Of a stretch of DNA of 64,000 nucleotides, positions 11,507 through 54,906 are shown piece after piece; positions within the stretch are counted from its first letter, which is position 1; each line of letters opens with the position of its first letter. This DNA is from Alkalicoccobacillus plakortidis (GTDB lineage Bacteria; Bacillota; Bacilli; Bacillales; Bacillaceae_D): positions 124,001 to 188,000 of the forward strand of contig NZ_JAMQJY010000004.1 in assembly GCF_023703085.1 (NCBI RefSeq). Direction: 5' to 3'. Both the position numbers and the translations under genes were made by a program. The notes under the pieces were generated by a model. That model made no database searches and was not told the origin of the DNA. It saw nothing but the letters and a program-made list of their open reading frames with translations.

Positions 11507-12267
11507 ATGAAAAAATGGGTTGGACTGAGTTTTGTAATATCAATCGTATTAACTGGCTGTGGATCTGCTAGTTCTTCAACTGAAGAAATCCATGTAATGG
11601 CTGCGGCAAGTCTCACGGATGCGTTAGGAGAGATTCAAGAACTCTATGAAAAAGAAGAGAATGTGAAGTTGGTTATTAATTATGGGTCTTCAGGAAAATT
11701 ACGAGAGCAGATTACACAAGGAGCACCAAGCTGATCTTTTTCTTTCAGCTTCGATCGCTGATATGAATGATCTAGAAGAAGAAGGAGATGTCAATAAATC
11801 GGTTAACCTCTTAATGAATCAACTCGTTTTCATTTCAACACCGGAAGCGGCAGATACACTTCGTGAGTGGAGTGATTTAGTCAATGAAGAGATTCAAGGG
11901 ATTGCGATGGGGCAGCCTGAAAGTGTGCCAAGCAGGAAGGTATTCATTACAAGCATTAGAATCTTTAGAGATGTGGGACGAAGTAAAGGACAATGTCGTC
12001 TACGGTTCTGATGTTCGTCAGGTTCTTACTTATGTAGAAACGGGCAACACAGATGTAGGACTTGTTTATCAAACAGATGCCCTTTCTTCTAATGAAATTG
12101 AGATTATTGACTCTGCGCCTGAGGGGTCTCATGATCCCATTCACTACCCAATTGCATTACTAGAAGCGGCATCTGATAACATGGCAGCAAATCAATTTTA
12201 TCAATATTTGCAAACGGAAGAGCCTGTAGGAATTTTCGAATCATATGGGTTTGATCAAGGTAAATAG
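11507..12267 (+). CDS. modA: Molybdate ABC transporter substrate-binding lipoprotein ModA, two frame breaks
   Basis: Starts MKKWVGLSFVIS with a lipobox LTGC, then the ModA hallmark HVMAAASLTDALGEI. The protein continues (INYGSSGKLREQITQGA, DLFLSASIADM, VGLVYQTDAL) only if one A is removed from CCAAGC at 11726-11731 and another from CCAAGC at 11929-11934. The repaired length is 252 residues, normal for the family. It binds molybdate outside the membrane and passes it to ModB. Both lesions lie in the same hexamer; see the frameshift finding. Confidence 0.8.
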
Positions 12268-12269
12268 GG

Positions 12270-12926
12270 ATGGGGACAGAATTTTGGACGCCAATTCTCG
12301 TGTCACTAAGAGTGGTTGCTTTAGCCAGTATTTTATCCTTTATCCTTGCTGTGTTAGCAGCGTGGTTTTTAAAGAAAAAGAGCTTCAAAGGAAAAGTGTT
12401 TGTCGAAACAATTCTCATGCTGCCTTTGGTGCTGCCTCCAACGGTTATTGGTTTTGGTTTGCTTGTCATCTTTGGGAGAAGGAGTTTTGTAGGTCAATGG
12501 TTTGAGCTGTTATTTAATCAGACCATTGTGTTCTCTTACATAGCAGCAGTGATTGCAGCAACAGTTGTTGCCTTCCCATTAATCTATCAAATGCTAATGA
12601 ATGGCTTTGAATCAGTAGATGATGATCTTGAAGCAGCAGCAAGGCAGATGGGAGCAAGCGAGTGGAAGGTCTTTTATCATGTTACAGTGCCTTTAACTTG
12701 GCGATCCTTAGTATCTGGTTATATGTTAGGGTTTGCTCGTGCACTTGGAGAATTTGGGGCAACCATGATGTTTGCTGGTAGTATCGCAGGTCTAACCAGA
12801 ACAATCCCAACAAGCATCTATATAGCAGTCGAGTCAGGAAATACAGCGATGGCGTATTATTGGGTAATCTCGATTGTGATCTTCGCATTTGGTCTACTTT
12901 CAGTTGTACAAAGACTCAAAAAATAG
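12270..12926 (+). CDS. modB: Molybdate ABC transporter permease ModB
   Basis: A 218-residue permease with five or six membrane segments and the EAA loop LEAAARQMGASEWKVFYHVTVPLTW that docks the ATPase; ALGEFGATMMFAGSI is typical of ModB. It begins 2 bases after the modA stop. No modC ATPase gene is present in the window, as in the B. subtilis yvgLM locus, so an ATPase must come from elsewhere. Confidence 0.9.
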   Translation: MGTEFWTPILVSLRVVALASILSFILAVLAAWFLKKKSFKGKVFVETILMLPLVLPPTVIGFGLLVIFGRRSFVGQWFELLFNQTIVFSYIAAVIAATVVAFPLIYQMLMNGFESVDDDLEAAARQMGASEWKVFYHVTVPLTWRSLVSGYMLGFARALGEFGATMMFAGSIAGLTRTIPTSIYIAVESGNTAMAYYWVISIVIFAFGLLSVVQRLKK

Positions 12927-13011
12927 ATGATCACTCATTTAAAGCGTACTAACGGAGCTACGTGACGTTTGGTCCTCTGCTATTAGGGTAAACAAACCTT
13001 TATAAGATCGT

Positions 13012-13034
13012 CCCACTTATAATAGGTGGGTTTA
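13012..13034 (+). terminator. Possible weak terminator after modB
   Basis: Short stem CCCAC / GTGGG with a 9-base loop, followed by TTTAT. The stem is only five base pairs. Confidence 0.35.
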
Positions 13035-13114
13035 TCCATTGCCAATCACTAATTAATGTTACAGTTAAGGGCAGTGGTTCATTAACCAAAGTATGTTTTA
13101 GGGGTTTTTAAAAA

Positions 13115-13936
13115 ATGCAGGGATCCAGAGAAAATTTTCAATCGATTAAAGATGCAATCTTAACGAGAAAAGAAGATTTGATTAATATGCCTCCTGCTCA
13201 CTCTATTGTTAGTGACAATACCCTAACGATGCAGTTATCTCCATGGAGAAAGAAATTAATTGAAGTGTACGCAAATTCAATGACAACTGGTCCCAAGATA
13301 TCTGAGAGTGATATTGAAGAGTGGGGCACAGAAGTTTCAGGATTATTGGTAAATTTACAGTTTCCATTAGATGTTGGGTTAAACGAGATCTCTTATTATC
13401 GTAACAGTATAGGTGAAATTGTTAGAGACGAAGCAATTCGTCAAGAGCTAACACTAACAGAGTTTTATTCAATTATCTCTGAATTTGATACTGTGGTAGA
13501 TCATGCGATTCAAATTGTTAGTCGTTCTTATATGGAAGAATTTCATCGAACAATTGAGACAGCAAAGTATGCCATTGATGAGTTATCGGTCCCAGTAGTG
13601 CAGTTAACAAAGGATACTGGTGTGATTCCAATTATAGGAGAAATCGATACAAATCGAGCTCGATATCTTATGTTAAATGCGCTTGATCAAGGTGCAGAAA
13701 TGGGACTAGATCGACTTATTTTAGATCTATCAGGTGTCAGCGTGGTGGACACAATGGTTGCTGGTCAAATTTTCAAAGTCATGGATTCGCTACGCCTTAT
13801 TGGAATCGATTGTGTTCTTAGTGGTGTCCGACCAGAAGTGGCTCAAACGATGGTGAACTTAGGCATTAAGGTTGAAGGTAAGGTCTATTCAAGCTTACGT
13901 AAAGCGATTGAAGATAAGGCAATTGTTGCGAAATAA
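13115..13936 (+). CDS. RsbR-family stressosome co-antagonist
   Basis: A 273-residue protein: an N-terminal helical, non-haem globin-like sensor (residues ~1-150) and a C-terminal STAS domain (~160-270) with the phosphorylatable Ser/Thr region LILDLSGVSVVDTMVAGQI. This is the architecture of RsbRA-RD proteins, which with RsbS form the stressosome and gate sigma-B activation through RsbT. No rsbS, rsbT or sigB is adjacent, so it is a stand-alone paralogue. TAGGGG lies before the ATG and a strong terminator follows. Confidence 0.85.
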   Translation: MQGSRENFQSIKDAILTRKEDLINMPPAHSIVSDNTLTMQLSPWRKKLIEVYANSMTTGPKISESDIEEWGTEVSGLLVNLQFPLDVGLNEISYYRNSIGEIVRDEAIRQELTLTEFYSIISEFDTVVDHAIQIVSRSYMEEFHRTIETAKYAIDELSVPVVQLTKDTGVIPIIGEIDTNRARYLMLNALDQGAEMGLDRLILDLSGVSVVDTMVAGQIFKVMDSLRLIGIDCVLSGVRPEVAQTMVNLGIKVEGKVYSSLRKAIEDKAIVAK

Positions 13937-13942
13937 AAAGAG

Positions 13943-13974
13943 TGAACACAGTGTTTCTCCACTGTGTTTTTTTA
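13943..13974 (+). terminator. Terminator after rsbR-like gene
   Basis: Nine-base perfect stem AACACAGTG / CACTGTGTT with a 6-base loop and a T-run. Confidence 0.9.
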
Positions 13975-13991
13975 TATGGCTGAAGGATGTG

Positions 13992-14029
13992 TTGACAATT
14001 TATTTAGTTGTAACTATAATGGTTACAAC
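13992..14029 (+). promoter_or_regulatory. Consensus promoter with embedded Rrf2 operator
   Basis: TTGACA (13992-13997), 17-base spacer, TATAAT (14015-14020). The -10 sits in the 7-base spacer of a perfect inverted repeat GTTGTAAC-N7-GTTACAAC (14007-14029), so a bound dimer would block the polymerase. The same 8-7-8 arrangement recurs upstream of the next gene. Confidence 0.8.
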
Positions 14030-14043
14030 AAGAGGTGATTGAT

Positions 14044-14472
14044 ATGAAAATTAGTTCAAGATTTTCTGTTGCCGTTCATATTGGTACACTACTAGCATTC
14101 AACAACTCTTCTAGGATTACTTCAGATTGGATTGCAGGTAGTGTGAATACCAATCCAGTTGTGATTCGACGTATTCTCTCACAACTTAAAAAAGCTGATA
14201 TAGTAGATGTGAAAAGTGGCGCTTGGGGAGCAACCTTAAAGAAAGCACCTGAGGATATTCGTTTGCTTGATTTTTATCAAGCCGTACAATCTGTTCCTGA
14301 TGATGGATTATTTCATATCCATGAAAATCCAAATCCAGATTGTCACGTTGGGGCAAATATTCAAGGGATTCTTGATTTGCTGCTCACTAAAGCTCAATCA
14401 GCCATGGAGAATGTATTAGCCGAAATGACGTTGCAGGATGTATTGACGAGTTTTCCGGAAAAAATCAAATGA
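14044..14472 (+). CDS. ywnA: Rrf2 family regulator, YwnA-like
   Basis: A 142-residue Rrf2-type winged helix starting MKISSRFSVAVHIGTLLAF at the ATG at 14044 (AGAGGTGAT upstream). The recognition region reads TSDWIAGSVNTNPVVIRRILSQLKKADIV. It has no three-cysteine cluster; single Cys in PNPDCHVGANI. In B. subtilis YwnA precedes ywnB, as here. It probably represses both its own promoter and that of ywnB through the two matching palindromes. Confidence 0.8.
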   Translation: MKISSRFSVAVHIGTLLAFNNSSRITSDWIAGSVNTNPVVIRRILSQLKKADIVDVKSGAWGATLKKAPEDIRLLDFYQAVQSVPDDGLFHIHENPNPDCHVGANIQGILDLLLTKAQSAMENVLAEMTLQDVLTSFPEKIK

Positions 14473-14494
14473 GATTTTTTCTTTTTTTACCCCT

Positions 14495-14517
14495 TGTGTA
14501 ACCAAGGTAGTTACAAC
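14495..14517 (+). promoter_or_regulatory. Second Rrf2 operator, before ywnB
   Basis: TGTGTAAC-N7-GTTACAAC repeats the 8-7-8 geometry of the site at 14007, with the right half identical and the left half matching at 6 of 8 positions. Confidence 0.65.
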
Positions 14518-14537
14518 TAAAATAGGAGTGATATAGA

Positions 14538-15179
14538 ATGAAAGTAGCAGTAATTGGAGCAACAGGTAAAGCAGGAAATCTTATTGTAGAGGAATTAAAA
14601 GAACGTGGTCACGAGGTAACGGCAATTATTCGTAATGCAAAAAAACTTAATATAACAGGTGTACATGTACTTGAAAAGGATGCATTTGAACTAGATGCTA
14701 CTGATATAAAACCATTTGAAGCAGTTGTAAATGCGTTAGGGTTCCCACCTGATCAATCTGATAAGCATGTAACATTCGGACGTCATCTCATTGATCTTTT
14801 TAGTGAAGTGAAAAGCACACGTTTGTTAGTTGTGGGTGGGGCTGGTAGTTTGTATGTTGACAAAGAGCACACCACACAATTAATTGACACACCTGAATTT
14901 CCAGATGCTTATAAACCAATTGCAGCAGGTCAAGGGACTAACTTAGCTGATCTGAGAGAAGTTTCAGCATTCGATTGGACATTTGTGAGTCCGGCAGCTG
15001 ATTTTCGTGCGGATGGTTCTCGTACAGGTACTTATACAAAAGGCGCAGAGGAATTCTTCTTTAATAAAGCTGGTAACAGCTACATTAGTTATGCAGATTA
15101 TGCCGTTGCGATGGCTGATGAAGTTGAGAATGCATCTGTGCTTAAAGGTCGTTTTGCTGTAGTCGGAGAAGAATCATAA
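14538..15179 (+). CDS. ywnB: NAD(P)-dependent epimerase/reductase, YwnB-like
   Basis: A 213-residue short-chain, Rossmann-fold protein of the atypical SDR/NmrA-like type. The dinucleotide loop is MKVAVIGATGKAGNLIVEEL, and TRLLVVGGAGSL and FDWTFVSPAADF are typical of the family. It follows the Rrf2 gene and has its own matching operator, implying derepression by the same signal. The substrate is unknown. Confidence 0.8.
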   Translation: MKVAVIGATGKAGNLIVEELKERGHEVTAIIRNAKKLNITGVHVLEKDAFELDATDIKPFEAVVNALGFPPDQSDKHVTFGRHLIDLFSEVKSTRLLVVGGAGSLYVDKEHTTQLIDTPEFPDAYKPIAAGQGTNLADLREVSAFDWTFVSPAADFRADGSRTGTYTKGAEEFFFNKAGNSYISYADYAVAMADEVENASVLKGRFAVVGEES

Positions 15180-15188
15180 GAATGAAAA

Positions 15189-15220
15189 AGAAGCCTTGAT
15201 TTTGTGAGGCTTCTTTTTTG
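15189..15220 (+). terminator. Terminator after ywnB
   Basis: Stem GAAGCCT / AGGCTTC followed by a T-run. Confidence 0.85.
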
Positions 15221-15269
15221 TTTCTAATTGGGATATGGTAAGGTAAAAGAAAGTCTAGGAGGGTATGAT

Positions 15270-15602
15270 ATGGCTATAGGACAGTTAGAGAAATTATATC
15301 TTCTAAAATTAGTTGAAAATCAAGAAACATACACAAACTTTATAGTAAGCGAGATGAATGATCACGTTTTAAGAATTGCGGTAATGAATGGCGAGTTTCA
15401 TTGGCATAAGCATGATGATTGTGATGAAATGTTCTATGTTTTAGAGGGTGAATTATTTATCGATCTTGAAGAAAACGAAACAGTGTCTCTTAAAGTAGGG
15501 GATATGTTCACGGTTCCAGCAGGTGTTATGCATCGAACGAGATCTAATCAACGAACAGTCAATCTTTGTTTTGAGAAAAAAGAAAATGATATAAATGGAT
15601 AA
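15270..15602 (+). CDS. Small cupin-domain protein
   Basis: A 110-residue single-domain cupin from the ATG at 15270, which has AGGAGGG at ideal spacing. Metal ligands are visible in FHWHKHDDCDEMFYVLEGE (motif 1) and in VGDMFTVPAGVMHRT (motif 2). Such proteins are isomerases, dioxygenases or sugar-binding modules; the substrate cannot be read from the sequence. It is monocistronic and convergent with mgtE. Confidence 0.75.
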   Translation: MAIGQLEKLYLLKLVENQETYTNFIVSEMNDHVLRIAVMNGEFHWHKHDDCDEMFYVLEGELFIDLEENETVSLKVGDMFTVPAGVMHRTRSNQRTVNLCFEKKENDING

Positions 15603-15617
15603 GAAATAGTTATCTTT

Positions 15618-16603: not shown

Positions 16604-16635
16604 CTGGTTTTCCTCCTTTTTACAGATCTAAGGAA

Positions 16636-16954: not shown

Positions 16955-18419
16955 TTACTTGAGCTTTTCTTGTTTGCTTCGACGAACCAAAAGTGCTAAA
17001 ACAACAGCAGCACAGGCAAAGTAAAAACCAGTAGAAAAGCTTAGCTGAGATCCAACCGTCAATGCGTCAGCTATATCAAGGTCTGTTGGGTTATTAATAT
17101 CAGCTAAATAATTTTGTTGTCCATTCTCCAATATTGCAATAAATAAGGCAGCACCGATTGCACCTGATACCTGCATCAATGTACTTGCAATCGCCGTCCC
17201 GTGTGGATAGAGCTTAGTAGGTAATTGATTTAACCCGTTTGTTTGGGATGGCATCATAATCATTGCAATAGAAATCATTAGAAATGAATGTTGCAAAATG
17301 ATGACCCAGATTGGTACACCTGGTGTTGAGAAACGGTATGTGAATACAGTTATTGCAAGAAGAATGGTTCCTGGAATAAGGATTGGACGTGGCCCAAATT
17401 TATCAAAAAGCCGTCCCATAATTGGAGACATGGCTCCGTTTATTAATCCTCCAGGTAGCATAACCAAACCAGTGGCAATCGCAGTAAATGCTAGAGCTCC
17501 TTGCATATACATCGGTAATACAAGCATCATGGCAAACATCGTCATCATGACAAGCATAATGAGAAGTAAACCAACTAAAAACATAGGGTACTTGAATACG
17601 CGTATATCGAGCATCGGTTTTTCTAACGTCAGTTGTCTCCAAGCTAAATAATGCGAGCGAAACAAATCCAACAATTAAACAAGAGAAAACAACGGGATCT
17701 GCAAAGCTGGCATCGCCCTTCCAAGCTGCGCTGAATCCATAGACAATACCTCCAAATCCAAGTGTTGATAGAATAAAAGAAAGCACGTCAAGTTTAGGTC
17801 TAGAAACTTCCGTAACATTTTTTAAGATTTTGATTCCAAATAATAATGAAAAGATGGAGATTGGAATGACAAAGTAGAACAACAAGCGCCATGATAGATT
17901 TTCAACAATTAACCCCGATACAGTTGGGCCAATTGCAGGAGCAAACATGATCACAAGGCCAACCATTCCCATGGCCGCACCGCGACGCTCAATTGGAATA
18001 ACTGATAAGATAACGTTTGTCAAAAGTGGAATCATAATGGCCGTTGCAATCGCCTGTATTAATCGACCAATCAATAATACGGAGAAAATAGGGCTGATTC
18101 CTGCTACTAGTGTACCTAGAGTAAATAAAGACATCGCCGTAATAAATAACTGACGAGTCGTAAATCGTTGCATAAAATAAGCAGAGATTGGGATTAATGT
18201 CCCAATAATAAGCATGTAGCCCGTTACTAACCATTGAACGGTACTGTACGCAACATTAAACTCACTCATAATTGCATTTAAAGCTACATTTAGAATCGTT
18301 TCATTTAAAATAGCCACAAATGCACCAGACAGTAATACAGCAAGTAGCGGTACCACTTTGATCTTTGGTATTTCTTTTTTTACATTTATTTGTTCTGTAT
18401 GTCCAACGTCCACATACAT
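16955..18419 (-). CDS. DHA2-family MFS multidrug efflux pump, one frame break
   Basis: A 14-segment drug:H+ antiporter of the EmrB/QacA (LmrB-like) type. Motifs: FNETILNVALNAIM-type helix 1 region (ILNETILNVAL), WLVTGYMLIIGTLIPISAYF, and GRLIQAIATAIMIPL (motif C area). The frame breaks in the middle: FVSLALF continues as WRQLTLEKPMLDIRVF if one base is removed from GCTTGG (minus strand; CCAAGC at 17639-17644). Repaired length is 487 residues. It is divergent from a TetR regulator with two matching palindromes between them, so TetR-repressed efflux is likely. Confidence 0.85.
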
Positions 18420-18569: not shown

Positions 18570-19200
18570 TTGAATGATAGCGTTCATCACCATGATGAAG
18601 AGAACAAACGGGGAAGACCAATGGATCTAACTCGTAATCAGGTCATCATAGACAAAACCCTAGAGCTCCTGGCAGAAGTAGGCTTTGACTCACTTACAAT
18701 TGAGGCCATTGCTCATCAAGCAAAGGTAGGAAAAGCAACGATTTATCGTAGATGGTCGTCAAAAGAAGAGCTCGTCATTGATGCAGTCTCATCTACTAGT
18801 CCGTTTGAGTCGTTTATGGATAGAATAGATTTTGATAAAAATATACGGGAGCAGTTAATTGATTTGCTTTGTTTTTGTTTCCGGGAAGAACACGAAGTCC
18901 ACCAGCAGGCAATGACAGCAATTGGTTCAGCACTGCCGCATAATAAGGAGCTAGAGCAAGGGCTTCATAATAACTTTTACCAAAAGCTTCGAGCTGCTAT
19001 TTTAACGGTTCTAGAACCATTTCTAAAGGAAGATCACGCGCTTGAACCAGATGAATTAGATTTGCTAGTCGATATTGGACCAAGCTTTAATCATCTATCG
19101 TATGTATTTAATGCGTAAACCTTTCGATCGTAAGTATATCGAGAATATTGTGGATCATTTGATGTTATCGATGCTAGAAACACATCTTAAAAGATCATGA
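18570..19200 (+). CDS. TetR/AcrR family regulator, one frame break
   Basis: TTG start with GGGGGAA upstream. The helix-turn-helix reads FDSLTIEAIAHQAKVGKATIYRRWSSKEELVIDAV. The frame closes early at 19118, but removing one A from CCAAGC at 19080-19085 restores a normal TetR C terminus (IIYRMYLMRKPFDRKYIENI ... LKRS) ending at 19200, about 209 residues. It probably represses the divergent efflux pump and itself through the twin palindromes. Confidence 0.85.
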
Positions 19201-25318: not shown

Positions 25319-26090
25319 CTAGTTAAAAATATTAGATTTGCTTCTTAACTGTGATACCAGTTCTTTTACTTGTTCTCCGGGTTCACCTGTAAGCTTCTGT
25401 CCTGCCTGCCTCTTCTCGGGTAACGATAGCTCTATACGTGAGGTTTTAGGTGAAAGTTCATCATCTGATACGTTGAGATCATCAAGTGTTAGAGTGGTAA
25501 ATGGTTTTTTCTTTGCTTTCATAATGCCCGGTAAGCTTGGGTAACGGGGTTCATTTAGCCCTTGTTGAGCAGTGAATAAACCAGGAAGGCTGACCTCAAT
25601 CTCTTCGGTATCTCCTTCTGCGTCACGTTTCGTTAGTGCTTTTCCAGATTCAATTGTTAGCTCAGTAATCGAGCCTACATGTGGAATGTCTAAAAGGTGG
25701 GCAAGACGAATACCAACTTGACCAAGCGCCATTATCAACCGAGAAGTATCCGCCTAAAATCAAATCATAGGATTGTGTCTTTAGATAGGCTGCTAGCACT
25801 TTGGAAATACTACTTTCATCTGTTCCAATGCGCTCGTCGTTGATTAATACCGCTTCATCAGCACCCATAGCAAGTGCTGTTCGCAGAGCCTCTGCACTTC
25901 TGTCGGGTCCCACTGAAACTACGTAAACGCTTCCATTTGTTTGGTCCTTAAGTTGAATGGCTTCTTCAACGGCGTATTCGTCATATGGATTGACAACAAA
26001 CTGGACACCATCTTCTGAGATAGTGCCATTTTCAATTGTAATTTTCTCCTCTGTATCAAACGTCTGCTTTAACAGTACAATGATATTCAT
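25319..26090 (-). CDS. etfB: Electron transfer flavoprotein beta subunit EtfB, one frame break
   Basis: Starts MNIIVLLKQTFDTEEKI and carries the family motif FVVNPYDEYAVEEAIQLKD and the ADEAVLIND region. The frame breaks at GCTTGG (CCAAGC at 25722-25727 on the plus strand): YFSVDNGA continues as GQVGIRLAHLLDIPHVGS after removal of one base. Repaired length is 256 residues, the normal size. Forms the AMP-containing partner of EtfA. Confidence 0.93.
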
Positions 26091-26118: not shown

Positions 26119-26708
26119 TTACTCGTTTGCCTGTAATCCTCTGAGAAAAAACTCAACCGTTTTATCGACTTGTTTTGATAGAGAATACTTTTGACCTGAG
26201 ATTAGCCAGGTTGTTACCACCTCATCCATTGCACCAAACAGCAGGAGGCGAGTCAGTTTGACGTCGAGATCTGCTCGGAACATCCCCGCTTCAATTCCTT
26301 GATTAATCACGTTTTCTAGCAGCTGAATATATGGTTTTACCACTTGCCCAATGGCAACCCGCATGTCCATATTGCTTTGTCTTAGTTCAATTTGAGTCAC
26401 ATATGCAAAGTCAATGTTGGCTTCGAGTTCGGTATAATGAATACGGCAAATCTCTCGAATGGCTTCTTCTGCATTAGTTATATGCTCTAGGCTCGTATGA
26501 AATTTCTCAACGAGTTCGCCAAGCTTTTCGCGAAACAAGGAGATTAAGATGTCATCCTTATTTTTAAAATAAAGATAAATCGTCCCGTCGGCTACACAGC
26601 AACCTTTGCAATCTTGGAAACTTGTGACTTGTGATAGCCATTCTCCGCAAAAACTTTTACAGCTGCGTCAAGGATTTGGTGATATTTTTCTTTTTTTCTA
26701 CTTGTCAT
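26119..26708 (-). CDS. fadR: Fatty-acid degradation repressor FadR (TetR family), one frame break
   Basis: Starts MTSRKKEKYHQILDAAVKVF; the HTH region GYHKSQVSKIAK..GVADGTIYLYFKNKDDILISLF is nearly that of B. subtilis FadR. The frame is interrupted by a stop at 26596-26598, where GCTGTGTAGCC should read GCTGGTGTAGCC: one base is missing in a GCTGG site. Repaired length is 196 residues. FadR represses beta-oxidation genes until long-chain acyl-CoA binds. A consensus FadR box lies 35 bases upstream. Confidence 0.92.
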
Positions 26709-26900: not shown

Positions 26901-29078
26901 ATGAAAGGACTGATTCACGTGGTGTTGCAGTGGACTCAATTTTTAGCATTTCTTATTGTAAGCGGTTTCAGCTTGTATATATTCGCAATGGTCATGTATA
27001 GCCGCTATCTGAATGTGAAATTGGGGCAGCCAGTAAAATTAGAAAAGAATTTAGGCAAACGCTTTAAGACTTTTTTTGTGCAGGTGTTTGGTCAAACCAA
27101 ACTAATGAAGGATCCAAAAAGTGGTATCATGCACATCGTTGTCTTTTATGGATTTATCATTCTTCAGTTTGGCGCCCTTGATATTATCGTAAAAGGGTTT
27201 GGGAGTGAGGGGTTACCAATACCCGGCTACGATGTGTTTGTTTTGACGCAAGAAGTAACTGTGTTTCTCATTTTTCTATCAGTAGGTTATGCAGCTTACA
27301 GGAGATATGGGGAGAAGCTACCTCGTCTAAAGAAAGGCTTGGAAACCGAGTATTGTGATCTTCCTCATTCTATCTCTGATGCTTTCTGTTTTGGGAACAC
27401 TTGGATTTGAACGAGTGTTTCACGACATGCAGGCATCTTGGTACGCGCCACTCTCATCAGCGATTGCTGCTCCTATTCAGGGGATGGGCACAACTGTTGG
27501 CGCCATTGGGTTCTATTTTTTTTGGTGGGTACACCTATTGATTCTGTTAACCTTTTTGATTTATGTCCCGCAGTCAAAGCATTTTCATCTCATTGTTGCT
27601 CCAATTAATATCCTACTTGGTCGCACAGGCCCGGTTGGAAGGTTACAAAAGCTTGATCTTGAGGATGAGGAAGCTGAGTCATTTGGAGTTGGCAAAATTG
27701 AAGATTTCACTCAGAAACAAATGCTCGATTATTATGCCTGTGTAGAATGTGGACGTTGTACGGATGTATGTCCGGCTTCGAATACTGGAAAGCTCCTGTC
27801 TCCGATGCATTTAATCGTTAAGCTACGTGATCATTTAACAGAAAAAGGAGCAGTTACGTCAAAAACACCATGGACACCTGCTTTTGCGTTTCCACAGTCA
27901 ACGACTCATAGTGTGCAAACAGGGGAACCGCGTGCAGCGGCTTATGATTGGAGTCAAGGTGCAATCACCAATATTGAGCCAACTCTACAGATGCAAAAGC
28001 AAATGTGGTCGCAGGATGGCAAGGATGTTGGAGATCTCAATCTCATTGGTGATGTGATGACCGAGGACGAAATATGGGCTTGTACAACGTGTAGAAATTG
28101 TGAGGATCAATGTCCCGTTGGAAATGAACATGTGGATAAAATTATAGACCTTAGGCGCCATCTTGTTTTGATGGAAGGTAGTGTGCCAACTGATGGACAG
28201 CGGGCGATGCAAAATATCGAACGACAAAGTAATCCATGGGGAATTAACCGAAACAGTCGGGCAGATTGGACAGAGGAGCAGGATGTGCACTATGTGCCAA
28301 CGGTTAAAGAAAATCCGGACTTTGAGATTCTCTATTTTGTTGGTTCGATGGGGTCTTACGATAACCGTAGCATCAAGGTTTCGCAGGCACTTACAAGGCT
28401 AATGAATAAAGCTGGAGTTAATTTTGCGATCCTTGGAAATGAAGAAAAGAACTCTGGCGATACGCCAAGACGTATGGGAAATGAGCTGCTTTTTCAAGAG
28501 CTTTGTGCGGAGAATATATCAATCTTTGAAAAGTATAACGTGAAAAAGATAGTCACAGCTTGTCCACATACCTACAACACATTCAAAAATGAGTATCCAG
28601 ACTTTGGTTTGGATGGTGTAGAAGTTTTGCATCACACAGAGTTACTTGATCAATTAATAAAAGCAAAAAGATTAGTTCCGCAATATGAACTAAAAGAACG
28701 AATTACCTATCATGATTCCTGTTATCTCGGAAGATACAACAACATCTATGACCAAGCCTAGGGATATTCTTCGAGCAATTCAAGGGGTGGATGTCATTGA
28801 AATGGAGCGAAGTCGAGAAAACGGAATGTGCTGTGGAGCTTGGAGGTGGAATGATGTGGATGGAAGAAACCGCAGGCAAGAGAGTCAACATAGCTCGCAC
28901 AGAGCAGGCGCTGGCAGTGAACCCAACTGTTATCAGCAGCGCGTGTCCATTCTGTCTTACCATGCTAGCAGATGGCACAAAATCAACAGAAGCGGAAGAA
29001 GTAAAAACCAAGGATATTGCCGAGATTCTAGATCTTGCGGTGTTTGGTGATGCAAAAGAAGACTCGGCTATTCATTAA
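26901..29078 (+). CDS. fadF: FadF-like membrane iron-sulfur oxidoreductase, three frame breaks
   Basis: An N-terminal five- or six-helix membrane domain (cytochrome b/NarI-like) is followed by two 4Fe-4S clusters (CVECGRCTDVCPASN and CTTCRNCEDQCPVGN) and two CCG domains (CYLGRYNNIYDQ, ENGMCCGAGGGMMW, ISSACPFCLTML), like B. subtilis FadF (YwjF). It probably passes electrons from ETF to menaquinone. The frame breaks three times: GCTTGG at 27338-27343, CCAAGC at 28753-28758, GCTTGG at 28839-28844. Removing one base from each gives 724 residues in a single frame. The ATG lacks a ribosome site; a 14-codon upstream frame overlaps it. Confidence 0.88.
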
Positions 29079-29094: not shown

Positions 29095-31489
29095 ATGGGA
29101 AAAACGATTAAACGAGCAGCGGTCATCGGATCTGGAGTAATGGGAGCGAGTATTGCCGCACATCTTGCTAATGCGGGAATTCCAACGTTACTTTTGGATA
29201 TCGTGCCAAAAGAACGAACAGAAGAGGAGAGAGCAAAGGGAATAGAAGTGAATCACCCATTATATCGAAACCGGTTAGCAACCTCTGCTATTAAAAAGTT
29301 GAAAAAGGTGAATCCGGCTCCTTTTTTTGATCCACAGTTGGCTTCCCTCATTACACCTGGAAATATTGAAGATGATCTGGCTCGAATTAAGGAAGTTGAT
29401 TGGGTCATTGAGGTGGTTGTTGAGAATCTGTCAATCAAGCAACAGCTCTATCAAAAGCTAGAGCAGGTATGGGAGAAAGGCATCATCGTAAGTTCTAATA
29501 CTTCTGGGATCTCGATAAATGAAATGTCTGCTAACTGTAGTCAGGAGTTTCAAGAACACTTTCTAGGCACCCACTTTTTTAATCCACCACGATACATGAA
29601 GCTGCTGGAGATTATCCCAGGTCAACATACCAATCAGGAAATACTTGAGCAAATGAAACAGTTCTGCGAACGAGATTTAGGCAAAAAGGTAGTGCGCGCC
29701 AAAGATACACCAAATTTTATTGCAAATCGCATTGGGACACACGGCATGCTTGTGACATTAAACGAGATGATTAAAGGTGGTTATACGATTGAGGAGGTAG
29801 ACGCGGTCACCGGTCCAAGCGATGGGCAGGCCTAAAAGTGCAACCTTTCGCACTTTAGATCTGGTCGGAATTGATACTTTTTATTTTGTCTCCAATAATG
29901 TTCACGAAAAACTAACGGACACTTCGGAAAAGCACATTTTTAAGGTGCCGCAGTTACTTGAGGATATTGTTTCAAAAGGCTGGATTGGCGAAAAGGCAGG
30001 TCAGGGCTTTTATAAAAAAGTGAAAACCGATCAAGGAAAACAAATTTTCTCCTTAAATCTTAGGACATATGATTACGAGTTATCCACAAGACCAAAAGAC
30101 GCATCACTTGAAGCGGCAAAGCTCGCAAAAGGAACACCGAAGAAACTCAAAGCACTACTTTCTGGCGGCGATAAATATTCAGAACTAGCCTGGAATGTGT
30201 TAAAGCATATGCTGATTTATTCAGCAGAAAAGGTAGGAGAGATTGCCGACTCAATTGTGGAAATAGATGAAGCAATGAAGTGGGGTTTTAACTGGGAGCT
30301 TGGTCCATTTGAAACGTGGGATGCGATTGGACTGGAACGTTCCGTCAAACGGATGGAATCAGAGGGGCTTACAGTACCTAACTGGGTGAAAGCTTGGATA
30401 GAAGAAGGCAATCAAACATTTTATAGACAAATAGAAGGAACGACTTTCTACTATGCGGATGGATCGTTGCATGAATCGGAACGAGCAACAGAAGAAATTA
30501 GCCTGTCTTCTTTAAAAGAGCAAAACAAGGTTGTGCTCTCTAACAGTGGTGCAAGCCTCATTGATCTAGGTGATGGTATTGCCTGCCTTGAGTTCCATTC
30601 GCCAAACAATGCAATCGGAGCAGATATCTTAACAATGATTCAGCAGTCCACGGAGGAAGTGCGGAACAATTTTGAGGGGCTAGTCATTGCTAACCAAGGG
30701 CGAAACTTCTGCGTGGGTGCAAATATCATGATTCTGTTGATGGAGGCTCAGGACGAGGAATGGGATGAAGTAGATCAAATCATTCGCATGTTCCAAAACA
30801 CCATGTATGACCTTAAACATTTTGAAAAACCGGTCATTGCGGCACCGCATCGAATGGCACTTGGTGGAGGGGTAGAAGTTTGCCTTCCTGCTGATCAGGT
30901 TGTTGCTTCTGCTGAGACTTACTATGGATTAGTTGAGGTAGGCGTTGGTTTAATTCCTGCAGGTGGTGGTTGTAAGGAATACATGCTGCGTGTAAGTCCA
31001 GAGTCTGCCCCAGCAGATCGTGACGTGCAGACTGAAGTCAATCGTGTATTTGAAACGATTGCCACAGCAAAGGTGTCAACAAGTGCAACACATGCTAAGA
31101 AGTTAGGCTATATGCAGAAATCAGATCGATTAGTTATGAACGAAGGGCATCTCATTTATGAAGCGAAACAAGCAGCATTAAAACTAGCTCCAAATTATCT
31201 GTCTACAGCTAGGGAGAACATCCGCGTAACTGGACGAGAAGGAAAAGCGATTATGAAGCTTGGAGCGAGGCAGATGCAGATGGCGGGATTTGCGAGTGAT
31301 CACGATGTCTTAATTGCCGGAAAGCTAGCCCATGTATTAGCTGGTGGAGATGTCCCATCAGGAACCTTGGTTAGTGAACAATACATGCTTGATTTGGAAC
31401 GGGAAGCATTTCTCAGCTTGTGCGGGGAGCCAAAAACCCAGCAGCGCATGCAGCATATGCTCAGTAAAGGAAAACCATTACGTAATTAA
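29095..31489 (+). CDS. fadN: 3-hydroxyacyl-CoA dehydrogenase/enoyl-CoA hydratase FadN, one frame break
   Basis: The N-terminal NAD-binding domain starts MGKTIKRAAVIGSGVMGASI, with the catalytic region FLGTHFFNPPRYMKLLEIIP. The C-terminal hydratase-like domain has NQGRNFCVGANIMILLM and ALGGGVEVCLPADQVV. The frame breaks at CCAAGC (29817-29822): AVTGP continues as AMGRPKSATFRTLDLVG after removing one A. Repaired length is 797 residues, as in B. subtilis FadN. Catalyses hydration and NAD-linked oxidation of acyl-CoA. AGGAGG precedes the ATG. Confidence 0.93.
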
Positions 31490-34530: not shown

Positions 34531-36211
34531 ATGCAGGACAACGTCTGGTTAACCCATTATCCACAAGAAGTTCAACCAACCTACGAATACCCAAAACAGC
34601 ATTTGGCACGTTTTCTAATTGATAGTGCCGAAAAATATCCAGAGCACGATGCCTTGTTTTTTCTCGGAAAAAAAATGACCTTTAAGCAGCTGTTAGATGC
34701 AACCTATCGTTTGGCAAACAGCTTACAGGATCTTGGTGTAAAAAAGGGTGATCGGGTAGCAATTATGCTACCCAATTGCCCACAAGCGGTTATTGCCTAT
34801 TATGGTGCATTACTCACCGGCGCAATTGTTGTGCAGACAAATCCACTTTATACCGAAAGAGAACTGAAACATCAGCTGAATGATTCTGGCTCCATTCTGC
34901 TCATCACATTAGATATTTTATCAAAACGGGTAAATAAGGTCCTTGATCAAACGAATGTAAGGCACACGATTTTCACCTCGGTTAAGGATTATTTACCATT
35001 TCCAAAAAATATTTTGTATCCGCTTACACTAAAGAAGGATGGATTATCCACAAAGGTAGATTATTCAGCCACACAGCATTCCTTTAAACAACGCTTGGCT
35101 AATGCTCCTAGCACCCCTGTAATGGTAGAAGTTGATTCAGAGAATGACCTGGCTCTTCTTCAATATACAGGTGGGACTACTGGTGTTTCAAAGGGAGTGA
35201 TGTTGACGCACTATAATTTAATCGCAAACACCCATCAAACCAAAGCATGGTCCTACCAGACCGAAGAAGGCAAGGAACGGTATCTAGCAGCTCTTCCTTT
35301 TTTTCATGTCTTTGGCATGACGGTACTAATGAACCTAGCGATGCTTCAAGCTGGCATGATCATTCTGCTGCCGAAGTTTGATGCGGAGGCCACATTAAAG
35401 GTCATTGATAAAATGAAGCCAACGGTTTTTCCGGGCGCACCAACCATGTATATTGCCTTGCTTCATCATCCGAATATTCGCCAATACGATTTATCCTCTA
35501 TTAATATCTGTATCAGTGGTGCCGCGCCATTACCTGGTGAGGTACAGGAGAAGTTTGAAGCCGTTACAGGAGGCAAGTTAACAGAAGGATACGGTCTGAC
35601 AGAGACATCACCTGTTACACATGCCAATAACATTTGGGGAAAAAGAAAGCTTGGCTCAATCGGCATTCCGTTTCCTGATACAGAAGCAAAGATTGTTCAA
35701 TCTGAAACGGGAGATGAGTTGGATGTTGGGGAAGTCGGTGAACTAATCATCAGAGGTCCTCAGGTTATGAAAGGATATTGGAATGCCAAGGAGGAAACAA
35801 CACGGACCTTAAAGGATGGTTGGTTTTATACCGGAGACATGGCACAGGTTGATGAAGAGGGTTATTTTTATATCATGGATCGAAAAAAGGACATTATTAT
35901 TGCAGGTGGATTTAACATTTACCCAAGAGAGGTAGAAGAAGTTCTATTTGAGCATCCAAGCCGTGATGGATGCTGTCGTAGCTGGAATTCCAGACGAGTA
36001 TAGAGGCGAGACGGTTAAAGCTTTTCTAGTGTTAAAAGAAGGTGAGAAACTAGATGAAACCGAAATCGATCGTTTTTGCCGAGATAGACTTGCAGCCTTC
36101 AAAGTACCTCGCAGTTACGAAGTGCGCGAAGCCTTACCAAAAACATTAATCGGCAAAACACTACGCCGTAAAGTTGTTGAAGAAGAGCTAGCCAAACATA
36201 AAAACGCGTGA
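34531..36211 (+). CDS. lcfA: Long-chain acyl-CoA synthetase LcfA-like, one frame break
   Basis: An AMP-forming ligase. The P-loop LLQYTGGTTGVSKGVMLTH, EGYGLTETSPVTH and GWFYTGDMAQVDEEGYFYIM are present, with the C-terminal lysine region LPKTLIGKTLRRKVVEEE. The frame breaks at CCAAGC (35956-35961): EVLFEHP continues as AVMDAVVAGIPDEYRGE after removal of one A. Repaired length is 559 residues. ATG at 34531 with AAAAGGGG upstream. It activates fatty acids for the pathway encoded beside it. Confidence 0.92.
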
Positions 36212-37064: not shown

Positions 37065-38009
37065 TCTTCGGTTTAATCCGAAGCAACACTTGTGCAACTA
37101 TCGCCAATACAGGTAATTCTATAAGCGGGCCAAAGACCAAGGCTAGCGCGATAATTGGCTTGTCTGGGAATGCTGTTATGGCAATGGCTAGGGCAACAGG
37201 CGAGTTACGGGCAATAATAGTGAAGTGTAAGCTAACAGAATCCTCGTACGACATGTTTAACCATTTACATAAAAGTTGTCCCAATCCGAAGTTTATTATG
37301 AAATAAAAGAGGATAGGTATAAGTAAGACATAGATGATTTCCAAATTAGACCAAAGATAGCTTCCTTGAGAGGCGAACATCGAAATAATAGCTAAGCATA
37401 AAAAAATGAGTTGTGCAGATGCAAAAAACGGAATCACTCTTTTCTGCAAAAGCTCCTGGTTTTTTCTAAATACAACCCTCGTAAGCTGTGCGAGGGTAAA
37501 AGGGAAAAGAAAGACAAGTAACACACTTTCAAGAATGGTAGAAAGGGCAATGGTCTCTACAGTACAGCAAAAATTAACAAATACACCGGTAGTAACAGCA
37601 CTTGAAGGATGAGGTTAATTGGAAGGACAGACGCGGCGAGAGGTACATTCCCCCGAGCAATGGAGGTGAAGACCAAATACCAATCGGTGCAAGGAGTTAC
37701 CATTAACATAATGAATGCAATCCATAAGGCTGGATGATCTGAAAGAAACGCCGCACCTAGACCCCAGGCAAGTAATGGAGTCCAAATAAAATTAATAATA
37801 GTACTTGTTCCTAAGAATCGAACATGAGTGAATGAATTTTTTAACTGATCAAGAGGGATCGTTAAGAAGAGGCCATATAACATAACCAGTAAAAAAGGAA
37901 TGATCAGTGATTCTGAATAAGTTGAAATGAGCGGAATTTGACCAAGCCCAAGCCCAATTAGTACCGCTGCAAGGATAATGAGGGTTTGTTGTTTTTCGAG
38001 AGTATCCAA
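37048..38009 (-). CDS. SBF/ACR3-like transporter (arsenic-resistance type), one frame break
   Basis: A ten-helix protein of the bile acid:sodium symporter superfamily. The segment MVTPCTDWYLVFTSIARGN is the conserved Cys-containing region of the ACR3-like subgroup, and HFTIIARNSPVALAIAI is the second. It closes prematurely at 37557: GCTGTACTGTAG should read GCTGGTACTGTAG, a base lost in a GCTGG site. The repaired protein has 320 residues. TTG start at 38009 with AAGGA upstream. The substrate (arsenite or another anion) is not proven. Confidence 0.75.
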
Positions 38010-39309: not shown

Positions 39310-41241
39310 ATGACGATTCAGCAAAAAACTGAAGTAAGTGTCACTGATTCATTTTGGAGTAGATATATAGATTTGGTTAAGGACAAAGTTATTCCTTATC
39401 AATGGGACGCACTCAATGACCGAATTGCTTGGAGCAGCACCTAGTCATGCAATTAAAAATTTTAGAATAGCAGCAGGTGAAGAAGAAGGGGAATTCCACG
39501 GATTTGTGTTTCAGGATAGTGATGTAGCAAAGTGGATTGAAGCAGCCGCATATACGTTGCAGGAGAGACCGGATCAGCAATTAGAAGAAACGTGTGACGA
39601 TGTCATTGAGTTAATTGGAAGAGCGCAGCAGCCTGATGGGTATTTGAACACGTATTATACGGTTAAAGAACCAGGGAAGAGATGGACTAACCTGAGAGAT
39701 AATCATGAACTCTATGTAGGTGGGCATTTTATTGAAGCGGCGGTCGCCTATTACGAAGCAACAGGAAAGCGTAATCTACTTGAAATCATGTGTCGATTTG
39801 CCGATTATGTGGACTCCATTTTTGGCTTAAAGCAGAACCAACTAAGAGGATATGATGGCCATCAAGAAATTGAACTAGCTCTGCTTAAATTATATCGAGT
39901 AACACATGAAGAGCGTTATTTGAGGCTTGCTCAATTTTTTATTGATATCCGAGGAGAGCAACCACACTTTTTTGATATCGAGGCCAAAAAGCGTGGAGAA
40001 GAGCCTCATAGATGGTTCCATAATAGCTACAGTTACTCGCAATCACACGCTCCAGTAAGAGAACAGAAAACAGCTGCAGGGCATGCGGTTCGAGCTGTCT
40101 ACATGTACACAGCGATGGCAGATTTAGCGAGTATTTTAGACGATGAGAGTCTTAAGAAAACCTGCAAAACACTGTGGAATAATGTCGTTCAAAAACAAAT
40201 GTATGTCACCGCGGGAATTGGTTCGGCAGAGTTTGGAGAGTCTTTTAGCTTTAATTATGACCTTCCAAATGACCTCGCCTATACAGAAACATGCGCCTCG
40301 ATTGGACTTGTTTTCTGGGCAAAAAAAATGATGGAGTTAGAGGCAAATGGTGAGTATGCAGACGTGGTTGAACGAGCGATTTACAACGGTACAATTAGTG
40401 GAATTCAATTAGACGGGACAAAATTCTTCTATGTAAATCCGCTAGAAGTATGGCCAGAACAAGCAAATCATCGCCACGACTATAAGCACGTGAAGCCAGA
40501 ACGACAGCCTTGGTTCGGATGCGCTTGTTGTCCTCCTAATATTGCTCGGTTAATTGCCTCCATTGGCTCGTATGTTTACTCCGTTAAGGACCATATCGGA
40601 TTTGTAAACCTTTATATCGGCAGCGAAACAACGCTTGGAGTTAGGGGAAACAAAAGTCCATATTAAGCAAGACTCTGAATTCCCGTGGAATGGTGAAATA
40701 AACTTCTCTGTTAACCCTGAACAAGTCTTTGAAGGCACCCTTGCGTTTCGCATTCCTGGCTTGGGCAAAGTCCTTCACTCTGTTAGTGAATGGAGAGGAA
40801 TCATCAACTCAGCTAGTTAATGGCTATGTATATGTAACCCGGAAGTGGCAAGAACATGATCAAGTTCAACTGCAATTCCCAATGGAAACAGAGATCCTGT
40901 TTGCTCATCCTGATTTGAGAGAAAATGCTGGAAAAGTTGCGCTTCAGCGAGGACCAGTCGTGTATTGCCTAGAGCAAATTGATAATGGAGAAGCCTTATC
41001 TAGCTTATCCATAGATTGTAGTCAACCTATTGAGGCATCTTTTGAGAGTGACCTTTTAAATGGGATCATGGTACTTAAGGGAAAAGCACTTAGAACAGAA
41101 GTGGCAGACTCATCTAAGCAATCGCTCTATTTGACAAGTGGGGAATTAAAAAGACAAGAAACAAGCTTTAAGGCCATTCCGTATTATGCTTGGGCGAATC
41201 GTGGAGTTGGTGAGATGGTTGTTTGGATGGCTTATAAGTGA
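39310..41241 (+). CDS. GH127 beta-L-arabinofuranosidase, three frame breaks
   Basis: About 642 residues after repair. It starts MTIQQKTEVSVTDSFWSRYI and carries the DUF1680/GH127 core. The zinc and catalytic residues of the family are visible: Glu and Cys in YTETCASIGLV and the Cys pair in FGCACCPPNIARLIASIGSY. The frame breaks three times, each at GCTTGG: 39424-39429, 40632-40637 and 40761-40766; removing one base from each joins everything in one frame. It releases L-arabinofuranose from plant glycans or glycoproteins. No signal peptide, so it acts inside the cell on imported oligosaccharides. Confidence 0.9.
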
Positions 41242-50467: not shown

Positions 50468-50477
50468 TCGGTTCTGG

Positions 50478-52235: not shown

Positions 52236-52273
52236 ACAATATAAATTGTCGTTACGCCTGGTTCATTTCCTAC

Positions 52274-54481
52274 TTAATTTTCTTTCTCAATCGACTTCTC
52301 TGCCATCTGCTTAGAAGGCCAAAATGCCCATTTTCCAAGTAAACTTGTAATAGCTGGCACAAGTAATGGTCGAACGATAAAGGTGTCTAGTAGTACACCA
52401 ATCGCTGTGATAAGACCGAATTGAACAAGAACTTGAATTGGAAGAGTTGTTAGAACAGCAAATGTTCCTGCTAGGATGACACCTGCTGAAGTAATAACAC
52501 CACCACTTTGTCCTACCCCTTCTCTTATCGCTTGTTTTAGCGGCAGACTTCGTTTCTTCTCCCAGATATTTGAGATCATGAAGATATTATAATCTTCACC
52601 AAGCGCCACAATAAATACAAAGGCATAGATAGGGATTAAAGCAGAAATTGACGGTACATCAAAACCATAGTGCAGTATCACCCAGCCAAGCCCAAGTGCA
52701 CTTGTATAGGAGATTAGAACTGTTGCAACTAAATAAAGCATAGCCGTGATTGATCGTAAATATAAAAGAAGTAAAATAGAGACGATCACAACAACCAACG
52801 CAATTATTTTCCCCTCGTCGGCTTCAATGATACTGCGTTGATCAACTTGTTCAGCGGTTTGACCGCCAATCCATACATCAGCTAACTGGTGTTGATCTTT
52901 GATTTCGATTGCACTCGCTTGAATAGCTTCAAGATCATCCATTGCTTCGTTACTATATGGATTCTCCTCTAATTCTATTTGATACATCACAATATCATCG
53001 TTTACTTCACTAACTTCTGGTTCCTCTACTTTATATACACCACTTAGGCTCTCTAAGTCCTCAGTTAAATCGACGTCTTCTCCTGCCACATCAAATACAA
53101 TTTGAACTGGCGCTAAATCACCGGAACCAAATGCATCAGTGATAAGAGCAAACCCTTCGCGGGAAGGTGTATCTTCTGGAAAAGAGGATAGGGTGTCATA
53201 AGAATATTGAACCTGTGTCACAAAGAACGAACTACCAATTAATAGAACGAGTGTAATAAGAATGGTTCGAATTGGCTTTTGGGCAGCAAACTGTCCAACA
53301 CTATGCCAAAAGCGCGATTGTTTATGAAGTTTCACTTTTTTTTTTTTTTCTTTGCTCGTTTGTGCTCCATTTCTTCCGTTCTTGGAACAAATGGGTAAAA
53401 TGCTGTTCGACCAATTAAGCTTAATAAAGCTGGTACTAATGTTAAGGATGAAATCATCATCACAAAGATTGATAATCCAAATGGAACAGCAAAGTTATGG
53501 ATCGTACCGTATTGTGAGACCAAAAGTGCCATAAGAGCAGAGACCACCGTTAATCCACTAACACCTATGACTCCAGCGGTATCAGATAAAGCGAGTCGAA
53601 TGGCCTTAAGTCGATTTTGTTCTTCATATAAAAATAGTCGGAATCTCGCAATTAAAAATAAGCAATAATCTGTGCCTGCTCCAAATAATAGAACGGTCAT
53701 AATGGCAATTCCTTGTGAATCATATGAGATGATTCCTGATTTCGCCATCCATCCGAGTATTGGAGTTGCTACTGCATAAGCCGCACCAACTGCAAGTAGT
53801 GGAACAAGCGGTAGGATAGGAGATCGGTAGATTATAAGTAGAAACACAAGTACTAATAGGACCGTTCCAATTAATAAGGAAACATCGGCGTCTGCAAATA
53901 ACTCCGTTGCATCTACACTTATACCCGCAGGACCAGTAGCTCTAGTGACTAACTCATTAGAATCTAGTGCTTGTTCGAATGGGTTTTCTCCTAAGATGTC
54001 GCTAGCTCTCTCTTCTAGTTCCGTCAGTCCAGCCTTTGTTTCATCAGCTGTTACGTTACTTTTAAAAAGAATGGCTTGTATAAATGTGGTGCCATCTTCA
54101 GAAATCATTTCTTGTAAGGCAGGGAGAGGGATTTCCTGATAAGGGACGGCCATCTCTTGTGCATTTAGTTCATTATCTGTGAGGCTTTGAGAAAGCTCCT
54201 GTATAGCTGTGATATCTTCCTCTTCTAAGCCTGATTCGCGGTACCAAGTAATGAGACCAGGAAGCCCATCACTATTCGGAAAATACTCCTCCATCGTGGC
54301 GGCAGCCTGAATAGAAGGTTGATCAGAAGGCAAAGGTTCTACGGTATCATCGGTATAATCACCAGATGCTGGTAGCAAGAGTTGAAAGCTGATAATAGCT
54401 AGAATCCAAATGCCTAATGTAATCCAAGCGGCCTTTTTTGCCAACAATCGCATGTGCGGTTTTTGTCAGTCCGTTTTTCAT
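52274..54481 (-). CDS. MmpL/RND-type membrane transporter, two frame breaks in A-runs
   Basis: An RND-superfamily exporter of about 735 residues with two sets of six helices, each preceded by a large outer loop. The motifs GAGTDYCLFLIARFR and ALGEDYNIFMISNIW mark the proton-relay helix in each half, as in MmpL and B. subtilis YdgH. The first true start is ATG 54481 (AAAGGAGACTAAC upstream). A six-A run near 54433 must lose one base and a 14-A run (T14 at 53336-53349) must gain one to give a single frame. Likely drug or lipid export. Its promoter carries two palindromes. Confidence 0.85.
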
Positions 54482-54509
54482 GTTAGTCTCCTTTAAATTT
54501 GTGATCATA

Positions 54510-54578
54510 CTTATCAATCGATAAGCTGAAGGTCTAATAGGGTTATATCATGATCATGCAAACTTATCAATTGATAAG
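54510..54578 (-). promoter_or_regulatory. mmpL promoter with twin palindromic operators
   Basis: CTTATCAATCGATAAG (54510-54525) and CTTATCAATTGATAAG (54563-54578). On the minus strand TTGATA (inside the upstream palindrome) is followed after 17 bases by TATAAC, so one operator covers the -35 and the other lies downstream of the start point. The regulator gene is not in the neighbourhood. Confidence 0.75.
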
Positions 54579-54713
54579 GTGTTGAGATGAATATAGAGGA
54601 TTAGTAAAATCACAACAGGGTTAGTAAATGAGTTCCACTCAATACTCTAGAAAGGGTCGCATCTGTCGATGTTATCTAGTATAATATTGGAAACAATCTT
54701 TAGGAGGTATCCA

Positions 54714-54906
54714 ATGTTCCATCCGATTCTTATGGGGTTTCTCATTGCTATGATTGTAGCGGTAGATGTATGGGCATTTGATCAGGATCAAAAAAGATGG
54801 GGCTTGGTTTAAAGCTTGGCCGAAGCCCGCAAAAATTATGGCTTTCATAGGCTTAACATTCGTTATGACCGTTTTTTGGTCAGCAGTTAATTGGAAGTAT
54901 GTATAA
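54714..54906 (+). CDS. Small two-helix membrane protein, frame broken
   Basis: A strong TTAGGAGGT precedes the ATG; TATAAT lies at 54680-54685. Translation stops after 32 codons, but removing one T from GCTTGG at 54808-54813 gives a coherent 63-residue protein: MFHPILMGFLIAMIVAVDVW, a charged turn DQDQKRWGWFKAWPKPAK, then IMAFIGLTFVMTVFWSAVNW and a stop at 54906. Two membrane helices, no known family. A good terminator follows directly. Confidence 0.65.

Follow-up and report, generated by a model that had tools for sequence, protein, structure and literature searches.

Frameshifts at CCAGC/GCTGG in the genome assembly of Alkalicoccobacillus plakortidis as probable basecalling errors at a putatively modified motif

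Introduction

Sequencing errors that gather at one short motif have been described in Listeria monocytogenes R20-0026, in which the errors of Oxford Nanopore Technologies (ONT) sequencing were centred on GCTGG, or CCAGC on the other strand (Chiou et al. 2023, PMC10687267). As described there, ONT-only Listeria genomes were of low quality, the seven strains sequenced alongside R20-0026 were of high quality, and whole-genome amplification reduced the mismatches of R20-0026 from 5670 to 16. The authors inferred a modification on which the basecaller had not been trained and left the mechanism unclear; since a single strain was affected and amplification cured it, the account given in that paper points to modification as the cause. 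It was the sole paper found in the literature on GCTGG methylation and nanopore sequencing in L. monocytogenes. Here we report frameshifts at the same pentamer in the genome assembly of Alkalicoccobacillus plakortidis (G000), examined in a stretch of 64,000 bases (positions 124001–188000 of contig 4, which has 210,633 bases; hereafter the window) and beyond it, and describe two adjacent methyltransferase genes, M1 and M2, that may be responsible for them.

Three described methylation systems are relevant to such a motif. LlaJI combines two adjacent 5-methylcytosine methyltransferases with McrB-like and McrC-like PD-(D/E)XK subunits and recognizes the asymmetric sequence GACGC/GCGTC, according to the published description (PMC1459862). 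BceSIII of Bacillus cereus is reported to act on another asymmetric pentamer, ACGGC, through two N4-cytosine enzymes, one per strand (PMC3526280). ModD1 of Neisseria meningitidis is reported as a type III N6-adenine methyltransferase that produces CC(m6A)GC (PMC13248616).

The genome of A. plakortidis (4.37 Mb in nine contigs, completeness 96.9%) is known here as a consensus assembly. Alkalicoccobacillus is a genus of environmental alkaliphiles. The nearest named relative found, in a search that may omit the genome's own records, was Alkalicoccobacillus murimartini DSM 19154, with an acyl-CoA dehydrogenase 93% identical. Over a 3 kb probe, DNA identity was 83% for congener G002, 79% for G003, 78% for G001 and 76% for G004.

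Results

Frameshifts are concentrated at CCAAGC/GCTTGG

Reading-frame changes that persisted in alignments of open reading frames (ORFs) were counted as frameshifts. The pooled set combined contig 4 aligned to G002 with an origin-side stretch of contig 1 aligned to G003, together 195 kb of aligned coding DNA. Of its 61 net frameshifts, 31 carried the hexamer CCAAGC or its complement GCTTGG, and all 31 fell among the 42 shifts of +1. A blind k-mer count around these 42 shifts ranked CCAAGC first (31/42 versus a background of 0.7%; binomial 2e-57). Contig 4 alone, compared with G002, yielded 29 frameshifts in 90,544 aligned coding bases; the hexamer lay within ten bases of 15, where 1.3% would be expected, and the corresponding fractions were 9/12 against G003 and 10/17 against G001. 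On contig 1, 32 frameshifts (36 before filtering) were kept in 104,780 aligned bases, and 16 were on the hexamer, against a background of 1.2%. In six comparisons of the sister genomes with one another (three pairs, both ways), 32 frameshifts were counted over 493,808 aligned bases and none was at the hexamer, and the alignment of G003 with the ORFs of A. plakortidis gave 35, again with none. Chance is excluded as the cause of the clustering.

The same signal was obtained from the relatives' side. A CCAGC in the relative stood opposite CCAAGC in A. plakortidis at 15 of 234 sites and at none of the 547 sites of five control comparisons. The length had changed at 18 of the 234 sites; for 13 other pentamers the proportion did not exceed 2.5%. 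None of the frame-preserving substitutions at CCAGC was clearly in excess (CAAGC at 14/234 versus 17/547).

The excess extends over the whole genome. A genome-wide count, which a first-pass annotation made from the window's letters had suggested as a check, gave 3178 copies of CCAAGC (728 per Mb), compared with 2029–2375 (507–544 per Mb, sizes rounded) in the four congeners, a density about 37% higher; the reversed hexamer, used as a control, did not differ (252 per Mb versus 233–284). The surplus amounts to about 850 copies, and scaling up the rate seen in the alignments (31 per 195 kb) gives about 700. CCAGC itself had an observed-to-expected ratio of 0.81 in the sampled DNA of A. plakortidis versus 1.02–1.04 in the relatives.

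Evidence against mutation and programmed frameshifting

The seryl-tRNA synthetase family was matched above the cut-off at one place only, by two overlapping pieces, the first of which has an internal stop; two other places matched at no more than 38 and 28 bits. The gene, serS, is split at GCTTGG, and since it is the sole one of its kind, a real mutation is very unlikely there. The gene for the chromosomal replicative helicase is also split. Because a second, unbroken helicase gene exists (in one frame at position 6387 of contig 1, near phage-like genes), serS is the cleaner case.

A true site-specific process that inserts a base at CCAGC, the alternative that had been raised with the initial reading of the window, would account for the motif specificity and for the absence of the pattern from all three aligned sister genomes. 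It would have to have made some 700–850 insertions genome-wide, one of them in the sole seryl-tRNA synthetase gene. Moreover, the 31 matches are spread over 27 genes, with three in one gene and two in each of two others, and sequence identity is kept on both sides of them (mean 0.82). We therefore consider this process very unlikely.

The recurrence of one hexamer at frame changes might also recall programmed translational frameshifting. This is contradicted by the occurrence of the hexamer in both orientations and in five of the six codon phases: the coding strand reads CCAAGC in 13 cases and GCTTGG in 18. On the contig strand the numbers are 15 and 16, in agreement with the earlier statement that both orientations occur. 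The hexamer never faced a partner's CCAGC at the 547 control sites either, and programmed frameshifting is scarcely conceivable. The frameshifts are thus artefacts of the assembly, and it is very probable that they are consensus basecalling errors at a modified CCAGC/GCTGG motif.

Sites listed in the window

The first-pass annotation had listed sixteen sites. ORFs of G001, G002 and G003 were aligned to the contig of the window, and a listed site was scored if a frame change lay within 12 bases; domain searches were run on ten unmended gene pieces. The sites are as follows.

11726..11731, + strand: CCAAGC, +1, in the gene labelled modA by the first-pass annotation; seen against G002, the sole relative aligned there
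11928..11933, + strand: CCAAGC, second +1 in the same modA-labelled gene; seen against G002, the sole relative aligned there
17639..17644, + strand: CCAAGC (coding strand GCTTGG), +1, MFS transporter gene; all three relatives; MFS_1 in one piece
19080..19085, + strand: CCAAGC, +1, TetR-family regulator gene; all three relatives, flank identity 0.65–0.72; TetR_N
25722..25727, + strand: CCAAGC (coding strand GCTTGG), +1, electron-transfer flavoprotein gene etfB; relatives' ORFs; ETF domain
26590..26606, − strand: −1 near ACAGC/GCTGT, fadR-like TetR-family gene; all three relatives; TetR_C_4
27337..27342, + strand: GCTTGG, first +1 in the fadF-like Fe-S protein gene; relatives' ORFs; Fer4 and CCG domains
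28752..28757, + strand: CCAAGC, second +1 in the fadF-like gene; relatives' ORFs
28838..28843, + strand: GCTTGG, third +1 in the fadF-like gene; relatives' ORFs
29815..29820, + strand: CCAAGC, +1, fadN-like gene; relatives' ORFs; 3HCDH and enoyl-CoA hydratase domains
35956..35961, + strand: CCAAGC, +1, AMP-binding (lcfA-like) gene; relatives' ORFs; AMP-binding domain
37558..37570, − strand: −1 near ACAGC/GCTGT, SBF-family transporter gene; G002, the sole relative aligned there; SBF
39427..39432, + strand: GCTTGG, first +1 in the GH127 gene; all three relatives; GH127 domain
40633..40638, + strand: GCTTGG, second +1 in the GH127 gene; three relatives, weaker alignment, flank identity 0.60–0.77
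40759..40764, + strand: GCTTGG, third +1 in the GH127 gene; G002 and G001, flank identity 0.55–0.79; no event against G003
54802..54819, + strand: two GCTTGG copies near the listed site 54808; region aligned to none of the three relatives

A frame change relative to at least one sister genome was found at 15 of the 16 sites (13 of +1 at CCAAGC/GCTTGG and two of −1), so that the listed frameshifts were borne out everywhere except at 54808. Accordingly, both of the claimed deletions and 13 of the fourteen claimed insertions stand. Flank identity was at least 0.65 against every aligned relative at 11 of the 13 +1 sites; 40632 and 40761 were the weakest (0.55–0.79), and these two and 19080 are absent from a stricter frameshift list against G002. 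At both −1 sites the assembly reads ACAGC, and an original CCAGC may be supposed. The domain searches agreed with the labels given previously (TetR, ETF, fadR-like, fadF-like, fadN-like, AMP-binding, SBF and GH127), matched MFS_1 in the piece of the gene labelled as a DHA2 pump, and placed a BPD_transp_1 permease piece directly downstream of the modA-labelled gene.

That all frameshifts share one pentanucleotide is consistent with the listed sites and does not extend to the entire window, where four more (16133, 21903, 53338 and 62595) lie off CCAAGC, those at 53338 and 16133 on A runs. A looser alignment showed one more GCTTGG with a one-base change in length, unlisted before, at 54426, near the start of the ORF at 53332–54453.

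Only a fraction of the sites is affected

As had been claimed, intact CCAGC/GCTGG is common, with 76 copies in the window and 13 in its first 5.1 kb (at least eleven had been reported), and only a fraction is hit. The aligned genes contain 205 intact and 31 affected sites, that is, about 13% affected; their sum is close to the 234 CCAGC sites of the relatives, but different filters had been applied to the two sets. CCAAG and CAAGC were each near 31 of the 42 +1 shifts, which suggests that the pentamer is needed at both ends. A longer recognition motif, allowed for in the initial interpretation, was sought by comparing the flanks of the 31 affected and 205 intact sites; no flanking position was fixed, and such a motif is not supported. 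One bias was detected: A is scarce three bases before the motif in affected sites (2/31 versus 78/205 intact; p = 0.0004 in 48 tests, which survives correction). This looks like an effect of basecaller context rather than part of a longer recognition site.

The bias bears on another explanation, in which the errors arise from sequence context alone, through a weakness of the chemistry or of the basecaller at CCAGC, with no DNA modification involved. The small effect of the base three positions upstream is in line with it, and the modification of CCAGC in A. plakortidis is something that we infer. In Listeria, however, one strain was affected, the seven alongside it were fine and amplification removed the errors, as reported in PMC10687267, and context alone appears improbable.

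Per base, shifts of −1 outnumbered those among the relatives about fourfold (19 in 195 kb versus 12 in 494 kb). Six of the 19 fell on stretches of six or more A, three were near ACAGC, and one, in the helicase gene, adjoins an intact CCAGC.

Candidate writers of the proposed modification

The methyltransferase search that the first-pass annotation had pointed to produced candidates, none of them tied directly to CCAGC. A profile search of the genome with PF00145 found four genes. A type III Mod writer of the ModD1 kind was considered first, since its reported target is CC(m6A)GC, and was rejected when PF01555 had no match at E 0.001. The D12 (PF02086), N6_Mtase (PF02384) and Eco57I (PF07669) families were likewise rejected: the first had no match, the third only matches below the cut-off, and the second a single match of 39 bits, with matches of 34–40 bits in all four congeners.

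Two of the four PF00145 genes, M1 and M2 (414 and 388 aa), are adjacent on contig 1, outside the window, at 2593245–2595666 (13245–14489 and 14500–15666 of locus L164). They lie in a cluster at 2587875–2597107 (7875–17107 of L164), in which a gene for an HNH protein (377 aa) stands beside M1 and M2, followed by genes for a 232-aa protein, an AAA protein and a DUF2357/PDDEXK_7 protein; by eye, the cluster adjoins genes resembling rlmH and a HtrA protease. The C-terminal part of the HNH protein matches the model of a phosphorothioated-DNA restriction endonuclease, below the cut-off. The 232-aa protein, which is separate and precedes the AAA protein, had no match in the Pfam, NCBIfam and PADLOC families. 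The AAA protein (494 aa) had Pfam matches below the cut-off and matched PDC-M26A of PADLOC, and the 602-aa protein matched DUF2357 and PDDEXK_7 above it, which identifies a PD-(D/E)XK nuclease subunit. Sequence searches of the Protein Data Bank (PDB) returned, for M1, no more than relatives of the HaeIII/DNMT1 type and further cytosine methyltransferases; for the HNH protein, one weak HNH hit; for the AAA protein, weak unrelated matches; and for the 232-aa and 602-aa proteins, none.

Three of the four congeners had no PF00145 match, and the single match of G001 is 41% identical to M1. The latter belongs to a neighbouring PF01555 and PF00145 methyltransferase pair of G001's own, at 10252–11991 of locus L168 (465252–466991 of its contig 23). 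Among 397 genomes of the order, M2 had matches at E <1e-80 in ten, A. plakortidis included; its homologues in the other nine are 53–76% identical. Homologues of M1 and M2 were adjacent in all eight loci fetched from the nine other genomes, and one genome, G047, has M1, M2, the 232-aa protein, the AAA protein and the nuclease all together. Among the plasmid matches listed for either methyltransferase and the phage matches listed for M1, no record states a specificity, nor is a target for the pair given in the accessible text of PMC12898733 and PMC11779793.

The remaining two PF00145 genes sit, by eye, among phage-like genes, and one of them covers half the profile. A competing candidate is the solitary, prophage-borne cytosine-5 methyltransferase at 16836–17897 of contig 1 (353 aa), which would leave the artefactual origin of the frameshifts as it is and replace M1 and M2 as the writer. 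Its gene is in one open frame beside a ParB-like gene, and it has homologues in 99 phage records (43–46% identical among the 40 matches listed). Three congeners lack a PF00145 match, and that of G001 shares only 27% identity with it. With a single enzyme, one would expect just one of the two strands of an asymmetric site to be marked, and paired enzymes in a nuclease cluster fit an asymmetric pentamer better, to judge from what is described for LlaJI (PMC1459862); we regard the prophage enzyme as a rather unlikely writer. The phage-like region around its gene spans 12614–19188 of locus L085, on contig 1; of the 99 phage records with homologues, 72 belong to phages of Erwinia and Flavobacterium.

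The M1/M2 pair is thus our tentative choice of writer, a possibility that we would put no higher than nearly even. The two enzymes, encoded in a LlaJI-like cluster, would each mark one strand of the asymmetric site.

Repeats elsewhere in the window

At 42530–43770 a 20-base unit is repeated in tandem about 62 times (88% matches); A. murimartini (L001) aligns to this array through about 135 bases only. Two further arrays, at 7074–7455 and 928–1220, each have a 41-base unit, in about nine and about seven copies, respectively. At 50507–50802 there are imperfect repeats of two periods, 103 and 82 bases, each present in about two copies.

Discussion

The proposed course of events is that CCAGC is methylated, that the changed signal leads to misreading at about 13% of the sites, a minority, and that a long-read assembly, most likely from ONT, thereby gains one extra base at CCAGC/GCTGG in most of the detectable cases. 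The earlier proposal of a basecalling error at a modified motif is strongly supported as far as the artefact is concerned, which is genome-wide, is specific to one motif, splits the sole serS gene and falls on a pentamer with a published ONT record; the modified base itself is presumed.

Several observations weigh against this interpretation or its parts. Nanopore is a presumed platform, and A and T runs in the sampled DNA were not clearly shorter than in the relatives, so that the usual homopolymer sign of Nanopore is missing, even though six of the 19 −1 shifts are on A6. The resemblance to Listeria R20-0026 lies in the pentamer, in the strain specificity and in the many long-read consensus errors; the errors described there are mainly mismatches, whereas one-base insertions are the detectable events in A. 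plakortidis. Among the flanking positions, only the shortage of A three bases upstream sets the affected sites (about 13%) apart. CCAAGC ranked only fourth among over-represented hexamers in a sampled ranking, and G028, from another family and the only one of 29 other genomes above A. plakortidis, has about 970 copies per Mb, so that outside the genus little can be concluded from CCAAGC density by itself. Finally, an excess of CCAAGC was not obvious in the nine genomes with M2 homologues (311–530 per Mb); same-genus counts for two of them were 1666 versus 1616 and 1962 versus 1845, at similar genome sizes. Since the platforms and enzyme targets there are not known, this comparison neither supports nor excludes a link to the writer.

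It is likely that hundreds of the frameshifts and pseudogenes in the record of A. plakortidis are false, and annotation and completeness estimates are misled by them. More generally, the motif at which the errors of a consensus gather can be a clue to a DNA modification not yet characterised, and the present analysis supplies candidate genes. Should the assignment to M1 and M2 be correct, frameshifts in an assembly would suffice to learn the target of an unknown enzyme where the deposited sequence is at hand and the raw signal is not; the GCTGG errors in Listeria could then be due to a related enzyme.

Among the described systems, ModD1 shares the recognition pentamer, as reported, and differs in being a type III N6-adenine enzyme, of the PF01555 kind that is unmatched in A. 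plakortidis. BceSIII, as described, resembles the proposal in having an asymmetric pentamer and one enzyme per strand, its enzymes being N4-cytosine methyltransferases, whereas M1 and M2 are of the C5 type. The closest likeness is to the published plan of LlaJI, which the cluster repeats with its two adjacent PF00145 genes and PD-(D/E)XK nuclease; the AAA protein is a candidate for the McrB-like GTPase subunit, for which a DNA-binding N-terminal half of its own would be expected. The cluster departs from that plan in the HNH and 232-aa protein genes that flank the pair, and its putative CCAGC target is deduced from the error motif. That M1 and M2 represent a LlaJI-like system of a new specificity, CCAGC/GCTGG, with one enzyme for each strand, is possible, if doubtful.

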